Shown in pieces: positions 7,648 to 40,129 of a stretch of DNA of 40,129 bases; the stretch's first letter is position 1, and each line of letters begins with the position of its first letter. Made by a program: the position numbers and the translations under genes. The stretch covers positions 1-40,129 of the forward strand of contig DGWC01000010.1 in assembly GCA_002395135.1 (NCBI GenBank), in the 5' to 3' direction. The notes under the pieces are model-generated. The model was not told the origin of the DNA and did no database searches. It was given only the letters and a program-made list of their open reading frames with translations. The DNA comes from Prevotella sp. UBA4268 (GTDB lineage Bacteria; Bacteroidota; Bacteroidia; Bacteroidales; Bacteroidaceae).

Positions 7648-10600
7648 ATGAAAAAACTATTTATCATTGTATTATTGTCGGTCGTTGCCATTGTCGGGGC
7701 AAAGGCGGATATAACTTTAAACCATATTTGGAAAGGTGATAACAGCCTTCTAAAAATCACTACAACAAGTGCTGGTGATATCTCTAAAGAAACAGATTTG
7801 AACACAAAGATTTCGGATTTCTTGACGGACAAAACCTTTAACCAATGGGGTAATGGTGAAGTGCGCATAGTCATCGAAGGGCCTGTGTCAAAGGCTGATG
7901 TAGCGGCCCTTTCGGTGTTGCAGCAAAATACATTCAAAAATGCAAAGGGTATAGAATGCGTGAAGAATGCCGACAAGTTCAATTTCGAAAAGGCCACATT
8001 TGTTGATGACAGTTCTAATGAGATTGATTACAAAACCTTTTTTAGTGGTTTGGATTCAAATGTCAGCAATATCAAGTATCTGACACTTCCTCCTCAGGTT
8101 GATTCAGATGGGAACATTGTGCCAATTGATGTAACGCAATTGTCAAAACTGAATAATCTGAAGTCGGTTGTGGCTTTGGACAACACGAACCACAATAGCA
8201 TTAAGAAACTGAATGCATACGTATTGGAAGAAGGATCGCTTGTCTATGCCATGCAGGCTCTCGGTGCTACTGATGGAGAAAACTCATTTGTAGGTAATTA
8301 CGCTTCAAAAGTTGATGAGGCGTATATTGCCGGTAATGTGAATGCGGTTGACTTAGGAAATGGAGGAAACGGTTCAATGACTATCGGCGAAAATGGCCAT
8401 CTCCAGTTCTGGGAAGAGATAAACGAACGTCAACAAAACCAGCAACGCACCTTGAAAGGCACGGCGACAGACGTAGCCTTAGGATATATGCAGTTTAAGA
8501 AATTAGACTTGAGCAATGCCCATTTCTCTGACATCAACGACCTTACCTTGTCTAAATACAGTATTGTCGGATCTAAAACGAAAGAAGTTGTCATCCCTAC
8601 CAGTGTAAACACATTGCCTGCCGATTTTCTCAATGGTTGTGGAAACCTCACGGATATTTGTATTCCATCAAACATTGAATACATCAAGACACGCGCTTTT
8701 CACGGAACAAGGCTGGATCATGTATGGACTACAGCATCGGCCGGGGATGCTGCCGACACTAAATACGACAACGGAAAATATGACGGACATGGCAATTACT
8801 ACGAAGGGAATGACAATCCCGATTGGCATGATGCCGCCACAAATCCTGCTTCGTATGGAACAATCACGCTGTCGAGCAATCTGAAGTTGATAGAAAGTAA
8901 TGCTTTTTCTTCCTCCACCCACGTGAAAGACGTGTATGTGATGGCCCTACAAGCCCCCGAATGCCATATCGATGCATTTAATTCCATGATGTATTGTGCT
9001 AATAACACACTTGACAAAACTAAAATTAAGGACGGATATATTGACCGTAACGCATATCAGAAAGACGAAACTCAGGGGATGTGGTGTGCAATGCTTCATT
9101 TCCCAGAAAATGCTGTGACACCTTCTATTCAGCGTTATACTGATGTAACGCGTGACTATTCTATCCCCTCGAACCTCACAGATGCCAAGGGTAACACCAT
9201 TATGTTCCCCACGCAACAGGAATTCCTGCGCGCCTATGGTCAGGGAACCACCGGATATCTTTGGAATGCATGGGATCCCAATCGCCAGGGGCGTGAATTA
9301 TCTCCTGGTAATCCCAACGCCTTTGTTAACAACGGTGCCGTAAACACATATCCTGTTCTGCAGAAAGATGCAAATAAACTATACAACGACAATACGGATA
9401 CTAATGCAGGCACCCATTATGACAAGACTCTAACAACGTTTTATGACGTAACGAAGGAGCCGAATGGTACAACTGCTACAACACAAGCCACTACACCCTC
9501 TGCTCCTGCTGACTACCAGACAGTAAAATGGGATGAGAATTCGTATACTCTTGGTACAACGTCGGGAACTCAACTCTATGATGCTGACTACAGAGGATGG
9601 CATCAATTCGTACTGACTGCATACACAGACTTCTCGAATGACCCACCAAACACATGGAGATTTACACAAAGTGACAACGACTGGTGGACGATTTGTCTTC
9701 CTTTCGACATGACAAAACGTGAGTTGAGGAAGTTCTTTGGCGACGAAAGCAAGGGAGAAGAAGCCAACGCATTCCCTGTATTGAGCAAACTTGTGAAGGT
9801 ATATCGTCAGGAGAACGACAGACCGAAAGAGAACACTATTACGTTGGTGTTCGGTCCTGACCTGCTTCAGAACAAGGAAGTGGTTGAATCTGGCGAGGTT
9901 CACGGAACGGTTTCTGAAGGTGTTGCTCCTGCTCTCGATGATGTTGTACTGCATCAGGGCGTTCCGTATATGATTCGTCCACGCCGCGCAGGAAACGGAA
10001 CAACGTTATGGGAAGCCCAGAAAGATACCCCGGAAGGCCAGAAGATAGCAGCGAAGAGTGGAGCAGAATGGAATGCAATGTTGCTGAAAGGTTTGTATAC
10101 AGTGAATTCTTACAAAAAGGACGAAACACTTCGCACCGACTTTACTTACACGTTTGTAGGCTCATTCTATCGTTATTATCTGCCCAAGTATTCTTATTAT
10201 CTCGGCTATAACAACACAGAAAACAAAGTCTGCTTCTATTGGCAGAGCGAAGAAGCATACAACGCAAATAAGAACTACAGTTGGAACACATTCACAGGTA
10301 TCATTTGCCCCAATTGGGAGAGCAGGACAAAGAAAGGCTCAGGTGATTTCTATCAGGCAACTTCTTTCGATGAGGGTATGCATTGGAACGTGGAAGGATT
10401 CCCGGATGATACGCAGGGATTTGATCCCGTTTATCCTAATAATGAATTCCCTGGACATCCTGTATCTGCCAAAATGGTGTTCATGTTTGAGGACAACTAC
10501 AATGATGCAACTAGCATCAGTGAAGTTGGAACATCTTCTTTGTCAACAGAAGAAATGAAAGTGTACAACCTCAATGGCTTGTATGTAGGAAAAACGCTTA

Positions 10601-11013: not shown

Positions 11014-11118
11014 TTTCCTTTGGGTAGCAGTCTTGCAACGGAAAGAATGGTTTCGGTAGTTTTGGGGTGCGAAATGCAGGTTTCTTTTTGGCGGTTTCGG
11101 GCTGTGAAAGTGGCACTT

Positions 11119-11214
11119 TGCTTCAGCAAATTAATTTAATTTACCGTGCAAATTAAATTGATTTACTTTTCAAATTAAATTGATTTACTCGGCAAATTAA
11201 ATTGATTTACTTTT
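11119..11214. repeat. 22-bp-period palindrome array 1 (four units)
   Basis: After TGCTTCAGC (11119-11127) come four 15-bp palindromes starting at 11128, 11150, 11172 and 11194, exactly 22 bp apart. The first is AAATTA-ATT-TAATTT (perfect arms). The other three are AAATTA-AAT-TGATTT, with one G-U-compatible mismatch. Linkers are seven bases, AC-nnnn-C, with the variable four being CGTG, TTTT, TCGG and then TTTT. The array ends 31 bp before the -7 box of the TonB receptor gene. The rest of the 10943-11345 gap is a terminator, a GC-richer left flank and a promoter. Confidence 0.9.
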
Positions 11215-11245
11215 CCAACCCGCAGGTTTGAAGGCTCGAAAGCAT

Positions 11246-11253
11246 TACTTTTG
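11246..11253 (+). promoter_or_regulatory. Bacteroidetes-type -7 box (TACTTTTG) for the TonB receptor operon
   Basis: TACTTTTG matches TAnnTTTG. A TTTG lies at 11227-11230, but the 15-bp gap is shorter than usual for the -33 element. It lies 93 bp upstream of the ATG at 11346 and just after palindrome array 1. Confidence 0.5.
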
Positions 11254-36789: not shown

Positions 36790-38580
36790 ATGAATACAAT
36801 CAATGAACGACTGGCTGCGCTGCGCGAAGTGATGCGGCGCGAGCGGCTCGATGCCTTCATCTTTCCAAGCACCGATCCGCACAATGGTGAATATATTCCC
36901 GACCACTGGAAGGGGCGCGAATGGATATCGGGATTCAACGGCTCGGCCGGCACCGCTGTGGTCACGATGAGCGAGGCCGCCCTGTGGACCGACTCGCGCT
37001 ATTTCATTGCTGCTGCCGAGCAACTCAGCGGCACGGAGTACGTGCTGATGAAGGAGCGCATGCCCGGCACGCCCAGCATCACGGCATGGCTGGGACGTGT
37101 GCTGCGCGACGTGAAATCTCCGCAGGTGGGCGTCGACGGCATGGTCAACGCTGCCTCGTCGGTGATGCAACTCATTGCCGAACTGCGCAGTGAGGGCGGC
37201 ATCACCGTGCGCACCAACTTCGACCCCTTGGCGCTGATATGGCGCAACCGTCCTGCCATTCCCGCCAACAAGGTGTTTGTGCAGCCCGAAGATTATACCG
37301 GCGAGGCCGCTCACGACAAGATTCGCCGTGTGCGCGAGGCGTTGCGCAAATGCCATGCCGACGGTATGCTCGTGGCTTCGCTCGACGACATCGCCTGGAT
37401 GCTTAATCTCAGGGGCGACGATGTGCACTGCAATCCCGTGTTTGTGAGTTATCTGCTCATCTCGTCGCAGAAGGCCACGCTCTTCATCAACCCCGAAAAA
37501 CTGACGCCCGAAGTGGTCAGTCACCTGCGCAAAGAGGGCGTGGAGACCGACGACTACACGCATGTGGCCAGCGGGCTGAAAGATTATTTCGAGTATAACA
37601 TCCTGCTCGACCCCAACGAAATCAACTATACCTTATATAAAACCGTGACGCGCGAAATCGTGAATGGGGAGTCGCCCGTGAAGCGGATGAAGGCCGTGAA
37701 GAACGAAAGGGAAATAGCGGGTTTTCATAACGCGATGCTGAAAGACGGCATCGCATTGGTAAAGTTCCTCAAGTGGTTGGAAGAAGAAATGCCGAATCGT
37801 GCAGCGGCACCGCTCACAGAGGTGTCGGTGTCTGACAAACTGGAGCAGTTGCGCGCCGAGCAGCCACTCTTCAAGGGCATCTCGTTCGACACCATTGCCG
37901 GTTATCAGGCCCACGGGGCCATCGTGCACTATGAGCCCACGCCCGAAACCGACATTCCCCTCGCTGCCGAAGGACTGCTGCTGCTCGACAGCGGTGCGCA
38001 GTATGTAGACGGCACCACCGATATCACGCGCACCATCGCACTCGGAGCACTCACCGAAGAGCAGCGGCGCGTCTACACACTGGTGCTCAAAGGCCATCTG
38101 CAACTGCAGAACCTGAAATTCCCCAAGGGCGCAAGCGGCACGCAACTGGACGCACTGGCGCGCAAAGACATGTGGCGCGAGGGCTACAACTACATGCACG
38201 GCACGGGCCATGGGGTGGGGGCGTTCCTCAATGTGCACGAGGGACCACACCAGATTCGCATGGAATACAAGCCGGCACCGCTGCTGCCGGGTATGACGGT
38301 GACCGACGAGCCGGGCATCTATGTGGAGAACCGCTTCGGCGTGCGCATCGAAAACACCCTGCTCATCACACCTTACACGAAGACGGACTTCGGCGAGTTC
38401 CTGCAGTTTGAGCCGCTCACGCTCTGTCCCATCGACACCGAGCCCATCGTGCGCGAAATGATGACTGCCGAAGAAATAGTCTGGCTCAACAACTATCATC
38501 AGATGGTGTACGACCGCCTGGCGCCTCATCTCGACGAAGAGCACCGGCTTTGGTTGCAAAAGGCCACCGCCCCGTTCTGA
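36790..38580 (+). CDS. Xaa-Pro aminopeptidase (M24 family, three-domain type)
   Basis: This cytoplasmic dinuclear-metal peptidase removes the N-terminal residue from peptides with proline second. ATG 36790 gives 596 residues, the usual size of the three-domain APP1-like form; an upstream in-frame start at 36673 would add 39 residues lacking family similarity and would span the promoter. Two creatinase-like N-terminal domains (1 to about 310) precede the pita-bread catalytic domain. Metal ligands are Asp400 (LLLLDSGAQYVDG), Asp411 (TTDITRT), His474 (HGTGHGVGAFLNVHEGP), Glu507 (TDEPGIYVEN) and Glu521 (GVRIENTLLI). It would help finish digestion of imported proline-containing peptides. It is divergent from mdh and stands alone. 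Confidence 0.93.
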   Translation: MNTINERLAALREVMRRERLDAFIFPSTDPHNGEYIPDHWKGREWISGFNGSAGTAVVTMSEAALWTDSRYFIAAAEQLSGTEYVLMKERMPGTPSITAWLGRVLRDVKSPQVGVDGMVNAASSVMQLIAELRSEGGITVRTNFDPLALIWRNRPAIPANKVFVQPEDYTGEAAHDKIRRVREALRKCHADGMLVASLDDIAWMLNLRGDDVHCNPVFVSYLLISSQKATLFINPEKLTPEVVSHLRKEGVETDDYTHVASGLKDYFEYNILLDPNEINYTLYKTVTREIVNGESPVKRMKAVKNEREIAGFHNAMLKDGIALVKFLKWLEEEMPNRAAAPLTEVSVSDKLEQLRAEQPLFKGISFDTIAGYQAHGAIVHYEPTPETDIPLAAEGLLLLDSGAQYVDGTTDITRTIALGALTEEQRRVYTLVLKGHLQLQNLKFPKGASGTQLDALARKDMWREGYNYMHGTGHGVGAFLNVHEGPHQIRMEYKPAPLLPGMTVTDEPGIYVENRFGVRIENTLLITPYTKTDFGEFLQFEPLTLCPIDTEPIVREMMTAEEIVWLNNYHQMVYDRLAPHLDEEHRLWLQKATAPF

Positions 38581-38619
38581 CGCATCCCGTTTTTTTAAAG
38601 AAACACATCCCATCGTTTT

Positions 38620-38684
38620 CATGCCGCCATGCTGCGAAACGCCCACACGTAAAGGGGCTCAGCATGGTGGCATGAATGTTTTTC
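38620..38684 (+). terminator. Terminator hairpin after the aminopeptidase gene
   Basis: CATGCCGCCATGCTG (38620-38634) pairs with CAGCATGGTGGCATG (38660-38674) along 15 bp with one G-U pair, followed by AATGTTTTTCC. It is 39 bp after the stop codon. Confidence 0.75.
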
Positions 38685-38856
38685 CATTGTATGAAATTGT
38701 CATGGAAAAACCGATTTTTGGGCTCAAAAACGGGTGATACGATTCACAAACAATCAATCGGGCGCGAAATACGAGTGTTTTGAAGCGTGTTTCGTAATTT
38801 GTTGGTTAACAAATAATTACAAGGAAAATTGATTATTCTAATGCGCAGAAATAAGA

Positions 38857-38977
38857 TGCTCGCTGACAAAAGCATAGGTTTTGGGTTGCAGAAACATAGT
38901 TTTTGAGGTGCAAAACCATAGTTATTGGACAGTGAAACCTGTGTTTTTGAAGCATGAAACCATAGGTTTTGCGCGTC
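38857..38977. repeat. 22-bp-period palindrome array 3 (five units, different arm sequence)
   Basis: After TGCTCGCTGAC (38857-38867) come five 15-bp imperfect palindromes starting at 38868, 38890, 38912, 38934 and 38956, exactly 22 bp apart. The clearest are AAAAGC-ATA-GGTTTT and GAAACC-ATA-GGTTTT. Four of five have ATA as the centre. The 7-bp linkers all start with G (GGGTTGC, GAGGTGC, GGACAGT, GAAGCAT, GCGCGTC). Arms differ from arrays 1 and 2 but the 6+3+6+7 geometry is identical. Confidence 0.85.
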
Positions 38978-39126
38978 GGAATGTGTCCTGTGGTAATGAA
39001 TCCTTACGTTTTTGTGTTTCCAATGCCCCATTTTTCAATAACCGATTCCTGTTTTGAAGGAAAACGGCAACACGGTTTTGTCGCGTTTTTTCGAATCATC
39101 AGCGAGTCGTTACACCGAATATTCAC

Positions 39127-39304
39127 CACAGAGTACACCGAGTACACAGAGATGGAAACCGCTTCACTGAAAAGACGGAGTAGGCAAAAGCCTCTTCACA
39201 GAGAGATACGCATCCAGTCATTCATCTCTGTGAAGTGCCTTTAGGCACCTCTTTTAAACTCTGCGTTAAGTAACAATTTCTCTGTGCACTCTGTGTTCTC
39301 TTTG
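39127..39304. repeat. Palindromic CACAGAG repeat element (about 180 bp)
   Basis: The ends 39127-39152 and 39279-39304 are 26-bp imperfect inverted repeats (about 21 of 26 matching) built on CACAGAG. Inside, CTTCACAGAGAGAT (39194-39207) faces ATCTCTGTGAAG (39224-39235), flanked by small hairpins AGGC-AAAA-GCCT and GTGCCT-TT-AGGCAC. CACAGAG-rich intergenic elements of this kind recur in many bacterial genomes. No transposase or target duplication is seen. Confidence 0.7.
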
Positions 39305-39350
39305 TTTCAGAAACCATACCAAGTTTTTTAAACGGTTACTAATTGATGGG

Positions 39351-39408
39351 AATTCGTGTTTTTTTAACATATAATTACCATGAATTAGCCGTTAATTATC
39401 CACGAATT
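39351..39408. repeat. Short AATTCGTG inverted and AATTA direct repeats
   Basis: AATTCGTG (39351-39358) is inverted at 39401-39408. Two related 15-mers, AATTACCATGAATTA (39373) and AATTATCCACGAATT (39394), lie 21 bp apart. It may be a fragment of a dispersed intergenic repeat. Confidence 0.4.
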
Positions 39409-39503
39409 GATTTCAAATCGTTTAAGTTCTTCCATCATGCAAGTTTCTGTCTTTTAATGTTATATGTACTCCTGAAGAATATTTGTCGCATCAGTAGAGT
39501 TAT

Positions 39504-39692: not shown

Positions 39693-39755
39693 ATGCTCCA
39701 AAGCGTCAGTTTCGAGGCGCAAAAGCAGCACTTTGCGGCAAGCAGTGCAACGAGA

Positions 39756-39847
39756 TGCTTCGGCAAATCATATTGATTTACCGCGCAAATCAATATGATT
39801 TACTTTTCAAATCAATTTGATTTATCGTGCAAATCAATATGATTTAC
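39756..39847. repeat. 22-bp-period palindrome array 2 (four units)
   Basis: After TGCTTCGGC (39756-39764), palindromes start at 39765, 39787, 39809 and 39831, exactly 22 bp apart. Units are AAATCA-nnn-TGATTT with perfect 6-bp arms and centres TAT, ATA, ATT and ATA. Linkers are AC-CGCG-C, AC-TTTT-C and AT-CGTG-C, the same alternation as in array 1. It ends 84 bp before the predicted promoter of the methyltransferase gene. Confidence 0.9.
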
Positions 39848-40027: not shown

Positions 40028-40129
40028 ATGGCAAATACGAACTTAGCAAATGCGAAGACGGCGAAGAACGATGAGTTCTATACGCAATACCCAGATATAC
40101 AGAAGGAGATAAACGCCTATCTGGATTAT
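40028..40129 (+). CDS. EcoRI-family adenine-specific DNA methyltransferase, N-terminal end (partial)
   Basis: Only the first 34 codons are present; the gene runs past the window. The sequence MANTNLANAKTAKNDEFYTQ followed by YPDIQKEINAYLDY matches the start of EcoRI-like methylases, in which K-x-D-E-F-Y-T-Q and a following D-I-x-x-E-L/I segment are conserved. Such enzymes methylate adenine in a specific duplex site and may belong to a restriction-modification system or act alone; no nuclease gene is visible inside the window. It has its own well-formed promoter and follows the repeat-rich gap, a setting common for defence genes gained by transfer. Confidence 0.8.
   Translation, partial: MANTNLANAKTAKNDEFYTQYPDIQKEINAYLDY

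Follow-up and report, generated by a model that had tools for sequence, protein, structure and literature searches.

What kind of element keeps a row of palindromes at one exact spacing while the letters of the palindromes change? The question is raised by array 3, at positions 38868 to 38970 of a 40,129-nucleotide stretch of DNA from Prevotella sp. UBA4268 (GenBank assembly GCA_002395135.1, contig DGWC01000010.1, positions 1 to 40,129 of the forward strand; the whole stretch is referred to here as the window). Array 3 consists of five 15-bp palindromes at an exact 22-bp step, each made of two six-base arms around three central bases (6+3+6) and separated from the next by a linker of seven bases. 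We conclude that array 3 is one instance of an intergenic repeat family that is defined by palindromic geometry and not by sequence. Genomes, contigs, and loci are designated below by G, C, and L numbers where they must be told apart.

Geometry of array 3 and the element that carries it

Together with its linkers, array 3 occupies positions 38868 to 38977; neither the array nor its units are assigned a strand. The units are AAAAGC ATA GGTTTT (38868 to 38882), AGAAAC ATA GTTTTT (38890 to 38904), AAAACC ATA GTTATT (38912 to 38926), GAAACC TGT GTTTTT (38934 to 38948), and GAAACC ATA GGTTTT (38956 to 38970), in which five, five, four, four, and five of the six arm positions pair, respectively. The palindrome score of 23/30 was reached by none of 1,000 order-2 Markov resamples of positions 38701 to 39150, the highest of which scored 20, and resamples of the whole window (n = 50) also peaked at 20. 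Tandem Repeats Finder likewise detected a 22-bp period at array 3. An earlier account of the window made from its letters alone, the sequence-only reading, had described five 6+3+6 units, 7-bp linkers, and an exact 22-bp step, and the unit coordinates and the resampling bear this out. Its description of the arms as AAAACC/GGTTTT holds as a type, but the arms are imperfect, with four or five of six pairs per unit.

The 22-bp step stands out wherever geometry alone was searched. A scan for four successive palindromes of any sequence over 440,129 bases of the UBA4268 genome (contigs C45, C41, and C22 were chosen as long contigs with array sites already known) returned 48 sites at period 22, 20 at period 33, 1 at period 30, and none at any other period from 15 to 35, and one resampled sequence returned a single site in all. 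Period 33 is a harmonic of 22, since in a tandem palindrome the linker center is a dyad as well. At a slightly lower cutoff, 19 arrays were found in the 440 kb, 8 of the class to which array 3 belongs (class B) and 11 of a second class (class A). A pooled count over 1.18 Mb of 18 other genomes (14 of the genus, with UBA4268, G006, and G017 excluded, and 4 of other families) gave 10 clusters at period 22, 4 at period 33, and never more than 1 at the remaining periods (15 to 40); among the 10, the cluster in G003 is AT sequence of low complexity. The geometry-only scan had been set beforehand as the test able to refute the proposed geometry, and it found more arrays both in the UBA4268 genome and, with other arms, in relatives.

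Array 3 forms the core of an intergenic repeat that is noncoding and dispersed. The class B element, with a leader, the five-palindrome core, and a tail, spans positions 38688 to 39104 on the plus strand, as delimited by blastn against the UBA4268 genome and by 30 oriented copies. At least 40 copies are present in that genome (231-bp query, E value of 1e−20 or better, 71 to 100% identity, window copy included), a lower bound obtained with 40 of 68 first-look candidates scored in an assembly of 3.15 Mb in 108 contigs that is 84.7% complete. A looser pattern had 155 matches there, compared to 34 for its reversed control. Alignments ran in one piece over at least 38698 to 39091 in 28 of the 30 copies, while L028 aligned in two pieces and L038 only over 38879 to 39099; fuller copies reach ∼520 bp in all, with the extra length on the left. 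The five units are in exact 22-bp register in 27 of the 30 copies.

The sequence-only reading had also noted that the linkers vary. They do so along the array, but the same linker recurs at the same position between copies genome-wide: among the 27 in-register copies, the successive linkers are GGGTTGC in 16, GAGGTGC in 19, GGGCAGT or GGACAGT in 20, and GAAGGGT or GAAGCAT in 14. This position-by-position recurrence indicates that the array is copied as a block. The consensus flanks of the 30 copies are GATGTTTGCTGA and GCGCGTCGAAATGTGC. One copy, on contig C1 (L016, L017), is 98% identical over the 231-bp query and 97% identical over 38690 to 39119, and the stretch that it has in common with the window extends for ∼740 bp on the plus strand (38690 to 39430, with a sharp left edge and a right edge placed approximately by eye), which indicates that copying has been recent. 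An element that spreads and diversifies, one of two possibilities raised by the sequence-only reading, is what the copies, at least 40 in number, show for array 3. In a test for target-site duplications, the element ends were not sharp, and the two near-identical copies share the ∼740 bp. A search for terminal inverted repeats gave a best 12-mer with 9/12 matches, not above the 8 to 11 reached by shuffles, and a miniature inverted-repeat transposable element (MITE) with terminal repeats is therefore not supported. Between arrays 3 and 2 (39120 to 39320), within the stretch shared with C1, we also observed a 27-bp imperfect inverted repeat (39178 to 39251) and CACAGAGTA repeats.

Arm classes and genomic position at a constant step

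The scan covered stretches of 17 genomes of the genus, UBA4268 included (5.8 to 440 kb each), and 40 kb from each of four genomes of other families; the contigs of G012 were too short for it. In G006, G017, and G035 the choice of stretches was guided in part by a known match, which biases the array densities of these genomes upward. Convincing arrays were found in 8 of the 17 genus genomes (UBA4268, G006, G010, G017, G024, G026, G028, and G035), and G001 had one weaker array. No array reached the cutoff in the sampled stretches of G007, G009, G016, G019, and G034 (only 5.8 kb in G034), matches in G003, G004, and G032 resemble chance or low-complexity hits, and the 40-kb stretches of the four other-family genomes had no arrays.

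The arms change while the step does not. Arm classes across the scans include AAAACC/GGTTTT and AAATYA/TRATTT, as well as AAAACT/AGTTTT in G006 (two arrays at the cutoff), GGTAAY/ATTACC in G024 (one array), AAAAGR/YCTTTT in G010, TCTTCR/YGAAGA in G026, AAAATA/TATTTT in G028, and GAAGCC/GGCTTC and TTCCCA/TGGGAA in G035 (one array each, both within called open reading frames [ORFs]). The claim of a fixed geometry with altered arms is thereby confirmed, as relatives keep 6+3+6 units at 22 bp with different arms. Genome-wide pattern searches showed how unevenly the classes are distributed. AAACC pairs occur in 12 of 150 genus genomes at 1 to 70 per genome, and the control matched once in each of 2 of the 150. 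The AAATYA class occurs in 3 of 60 genomes, including UBA4268, with 180, 104, and 1 matches, and its control had none. The TCTTNR class came to light through the geometry-only scan of 60 kb of G026; sought genome-wide, it matched 3 of 150 genus genomes (13 pairs in G026, 4 in G003, and 1 in G107), a count that confirmed its dispersal. Its reversed control also matched 3 of 150, with 54 matches in G080 and 1 in each of two others; the control pattern also forms a pair of palindromes at 22 bp (arms AGAANY/RNTTCT), and G080 may hold a further arm class of that sequence rather than chance matches. Dispersed bacterial repeats are usually described species by species from their sequence, and here it is the geometry that is conserved, which sequence-based searches miss.

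Outside UBA4268 the array is found largely without the rest of the class B element. When the 417-bp element was compared with 60 genomes, one full copy was found outside UBA4268 among the candidates scored (G006, 84%). Elsewhere in G006 (11 of 129 candidates scored) and in G017 (11 of 145 scored), matches covered only the array core, and G026 had a single 34-base match in the tail. Twelve class B arrays of G006 have no common leader or tail, a few of them having another short repeat nearby, which argues that the array itself is the unit. One such intergenic repeat, of the CTGATTTTCAG type, lies beside a G006 class B array in L155 (∼8800 to 8930). In G017, an array sits in a conserved ∼200-bp element (17 copies) with four palindromes at 22 bp.

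Arrays 1 and 2 of the window are members of the second dispersed class, class A, with arms AAATYA/TRATTT. Two adjacent class A units (at most one mismatch) match 215 times in the UBA4268 genome, and the reversed pattern does not match at all. The core of array 2 (39765 to 39845, no strand assigned) has four perfect AAATCA NNN TGATTT palindromes at 22 bp, preceded in the same phase by three weaker palindromes (39699 to 39764, likewise unstranded) with scores of 3, 4, and 3 of 6. Array 1 (11106 to 11252, unstranded) has four AAATTA units at 11128 to 11208 with weaker in-phase units on both sides. By pattern, 16 of 19 class A arrays in UBA4268 have four strong units. In these 19 arrays the first to third outer units average 2.74, 2.84, and 2.79 of 6 on the left and 2.58, 3.00, and 2.95 on the right, and units four to six drop to 1.37 to 1.89; a first flank measure on 18 arrays, two with a shortened core, had been repeated with full cores to give these values. 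The weaker flanking palindromes keep phase, which makes class A a row of ∼10 sites. The outer units are less even in 11 arrays of G006 (1.73 to 3.73 versus 1.00 to 2.09 farther out).

The start motif and right flank of array 3 had been likened to those of array 2. This was not supported: class B copies have the consensus flanks given above, class A arrays do not conserve the right flank that had been quoted for array 2 (class A consensus ACTTTTCC..., 18 arrays), and the likeness looks like chance. The start of an EcoRI-type adenine methyltransferase gene (PF13651, E value of 8.6e−8 over 34 in-window residues) lies at 40028 to 40129, ∼180 bp downstream of array 2.

Palindromes could also act as folded nucleic acid, either as RNA hairpins at 3′ ends with a role in termination or stability or as cruciforms. 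Folded as RNA, the arrays outdid dinucleotide shuffles (z = −3.3 for one strand of array 3 and −2.3 for the other, −7.5 for array 2, and −6.3 for array 1), and in the outer class A units of UBA4268 a single arm pair of the six covaries (z = 4.3). Any palindromic array yields such folding scores, however, and the covariation is absent from G006 (17 observed versus 20.0 expected). RNA hairpins do not require an exact 7-base linker or a 22-base step, array position is unbiased relative to transcription (see below), and Rfam had no match at gathering score anywhere in the window, by which a curated structured-RNA family was rejected. We regard a structured nucleic acid as very improbable.

The arrays are intergenic: 68 of 72 lay outside called ORFs (≥120 codons), although 77 to 87% of the scanned bases are in called ORFs (arrays near the end of a stretch were excluded). 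The genes flanking 16 arrays were convergent in 6 cases, codirectional in 7, and divergent in 3. In three comparable gaps syntenic between UBA4268 and G006 (∼80% nucleotide identity where aligned), two had an array in one genome only, and the third had an array in both, in opposite orientation and with different flanks. Downstream of the peptidase gene that adjoins array 3 in the window, G006 has a different neighbor and no array at the cutoff.

Two explanations bear directly on this distribution. The arrays might be read by a host protein, a chromosomal, dimeric, oligomerizing DNA-binding protein of the nucleoid or Lrp-like kind whose specificity drifts, and might organize or silence intergenic DNA. 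Binding of 15-bp palindromes in regular phase by Lrp/AsnC-type proteins offers a resemblance. The many copies, their position outside ORFs without promoter bias, and the gap that holds an array in both genomes despite different orientation and flanks are consistent with such a protein. It fits poorly with copy number and arm class that jump between species, as the AAACC pairs do, or with the 5 of 17 genus genomes without an array at the cutoff in the sampled stretches, since a nucleoid protein should have sites everywhere. We consider a host reader rather unlikely. Alternatively, the arrays could be passive or selfish, MITE-like elements that happen to hold a short minisatellite and have no present binding function. 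At least 40 copies of the array 3 element, one of them 98% identical, presence versus absence in two of the three syntenic gaps, and comparable published repeats (PINSR and BrickBuilt; see below) argue for this. The lack of terminal inverted repeats above chance argues the other way, as do the G006 class B arrays, which no carrier element explains in the absence of a common leader or tail, and drift fails to explain why unrelated sequences should all settle on a 22-bp step. A purely passive repeat, too, seems to us unlikely.

Phage arrays and a candidate reader

A constant step with changing arms is what a row of protein-binding sites would leave behind. The core of array 3 would be a double-stranded row of iteron-type sites, each 15-bp palindrome being bound by a single protein dimer; with a step of 22 bp, or two helical turns, the dimers would all face the same side of the helix and so bind cooperatively. 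Dimer binding and cooperativity are inferred. Spacing would be held by the contact of neighboring dimers, while the arm letters would change with the recognition domain. According to a review, a half turn of the helix between iterons does away with cooperativity (PMC4980987). That 22 bp is the only enriched period apart from its harmonic and that unrelated arm sequences share it favor this reading, and phage arrays with the same arms and step point to iteron-like protein binding. We think it fairly probable that array 3 is an iteron-like protein-binding array.

Two adjacent AAACC/GGTTT palindromes at 22 bp were found in 10 viral contigs. All six ORFs tested around these arrays matched DUF6291, and three of five array-bearing phage genes tested against PHROGs matched replication-initiation or helicase-loader families. 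L293 and L294 resemble the array-bearing phage genes by eye, and in L287 and L291 the arrays lie outside called ORFs. In seven phage genes the measured steps were 22 or 23 bp, or double that across a missing unit, and successive units fall in different reading frames (1, 2, 0 in three genes), indicating that DNA and not protein is conserved there. AAARG arms were likewise found in 10 viral contigs. One of these arrays lies directly upstream of a Rep_3 initiator gene (E value of 1.5e−26), and L447 and L448 carry the array within an ORF whose O-like match is marginal (L448 tested, E value of 2.3e−4); no initiator link was established for the remaining seven contigs.

Phage initiator genes contain the same arms at the same step, and on that ground a replication-initiator-like protein of phages or plasmids would model the reader best. 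The chromosomal arrays would either titrate or simply bind such a protein, or else tag a small element whose spread it helps. The phage evidence points weakly to an initiator, and we hold a reader of that type to be somewhat less likely than not. The joint reading, an iteron-like binding array read by an initiator-type protein, is in our judgment a serious possibility that falls short of probable. Its value is that phage initiator genes with the same arms and step provide a concrete first candidate for the reader protein.

Several results weigh against such a reader. Array-bearing phage genes L288 and L289 match only PHROG families of unknown function, and only 1 of the 10 AAARG viral contigs adjoins a proven initiator family. 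Of 48 distinct phage loci with DUF6291 (duplicates dropped; L358, L365, and L367 excluded because only the C-terminal part matched), just 2 have three strong palindromes at steps of 21 to 24, and none has them at four control step ranges. Class A arms had no match in viral contigs, and AAACT arms were found in two, in arrays between ORFs with no initiator recognized. Plasmid records searched with arrays 3 and 2 gave weak matches only (E values of 0.1 and 0.5 at best, low-complexity filter on), and phage linkers differ from chromosomal linkers by inspection. Against dozens of arrays, UBA4268 has a single gene each for DUF6291 and Rep_3, and class A or B arms are found in neither. Array-dense G017 has no DUF6291 match, and the array 745 bp upstream of its Rep_3 gene stands in a genome where arrays are common. 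In a further difference from origin iterons, there is no DnaA box near array 3 (no exact TTATNCACA in 38501 to 39300). Finally, no reader gene tracks the arrays among those tested: the notion of related proteins with different specificities is plausible, but Y1_Tnp (RAYT), DUF6291, and Rep_3 do not follow the arm classes, and the last two were accordingly set aside as trackers.

Other searches touched the same families. Phage records searched with array 3 itself gave only weak matches (E value of 0.4 at best, low-complexity filter on), and in UBA4268 no initiator gene was found beside the chromosomal arrays, DUF6291 and Rep_3 being the only initiator families sought. A structure model of DUF6291 had a mean pLDDT of 51 and was not used further. 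Two more DUF6291 loci, L376 and L421, have palindromes ∼22 to 23 bp apart by eye and fall short of three strong palindromes at steps of 21 to 24. The UBA4268 DUF6291 gene (L431) has ACCGATAT repeats ∼10 bp apart in its linker region, and a DUF6291 gene of G018 (L430) has ATGCAT-type palindromes with centers 22 bp apart by eye. Upstream of the Rep_3 genes L455, L456, and L458 (G010, G012, and G026), direct repeats at ∼22 bp (TTAAGTAACCTTTTGGGAACGA type in G010) are visible by eye and look like ordinary iterons, not palindromic ones. A second, similar Rep_3 protein of 383 to 394 amino acids (L460, L461, L462, and L463) is present in G003, G010, G017, and G026; our guess is that it may be the initiator of a second chromosome.

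A variant of the initiator reading gives the arrays a role in defense. The chromosomal arrays could be dispersed decoy origins that mimic iterons of the phages and plasmids infecting the genus and are maintained because they titrate or handcuff incoming initiators. Arm classes would then shift between species in an arms race with initiator recognition domains, and the 22-bp step would stay because cooperative initiator assembly needs it. We consider this improbable; if true, it would amount to a gene-free resistance to phages and plasmids made of DNA sites alone. The shared 22-bp design makes a testable question of an unexplained repeat, namely, which protein reads the row and whether its recognition domain follows the arms.

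Comparison with known repeat systems

REP, BIME, and REPIN sequences are dispersed intergenic palindromes with species-specific sequences and many copies, as the arrays are, and the constant 22-bp tandem step sets the arrays apart from them. The Y1 transposase family PF01797 is present in G006, G010, and G028, but had no match at an E value of 0.001 in five array-bearing genomes (G000, G017, G024, G026, and G035), and a REP/RAYT system was therefore rejected. A CRISPR array was rejected on repeats of 15 bp that vary and linkers of 7 bp (cas genes were not searched). A-tract bending as the common cause was rejected because GAAGCC/GGCTTC and TCTTCR/YGAAGA arms are, by inspection, without A-tracts.

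Array 3 had been called the part of the window least like any described feature. This is too strong, as two published repeats are close in kind. PINSR is a dispersed 188-bp repeat of a Prevotella clade with 177 to 184 copies, and P. falsenii was PCR positive for it (PMC4755523). As described there, PINSR resembles the array 3 element in being dispersed, intergenic, noncoding, and without terminal inverted repeats. The array 3 element differs in leader, tail, length, and species, and the available PINSR text mentions neither palindromes nor a 22-bp step. However, G017, which we equate with the PINSR host P. falsenii DSM 22864, is the genome whose ∼200-bp element bears four 22-bp palindromes. 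The G017 family is probably PINSR itself, and PINSR therefore probably has the 22-bp palindromic design. Unrelated repeat families of one genus, PINSR probably among them, share a single design. A literature search, mostly of titles and abstracts and with subscription papers outside it, found no announced constant 22-bp palindromic geometry across Prevotella.

BrickBuilt, a MITE of Porphyromonas gingivalis, has 19 copies, a 23-nucleotide unit repeated 1 to 22.8 times, and IS5-like terminal inverted repeats (PMC4596501). Both BrickBuilt and the array 3 element are intergenic and consist of a tandem-repeat core between a leader and a tail, while the array 3 element has a step of 22, a near-fixed number of units, and no such ends that we could find.

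A parallel to the proposed binding row is found in origins of replication. In the record of phage lambda, the textbook case, four annotated ori iterons lie within one coding sequence, presumably gene O, at steps of 20, 24, and 23. The lambda iterons are thus inside the initiator gene, whereas the chromosomal arrays are many and as a rule have no adjacent initiator gene. Iterons are mostly 17 to 22 bp, with two to seven per origin, according to the review cited above (PMC4980987). Like lambda ori and iteron plasmids, the arrays consist of short repeats, few in number and spaced about two helical turns apart, and the exact 22-bp step, together with the specificity of that period in the scans, places them at the spacing expected of iterons.
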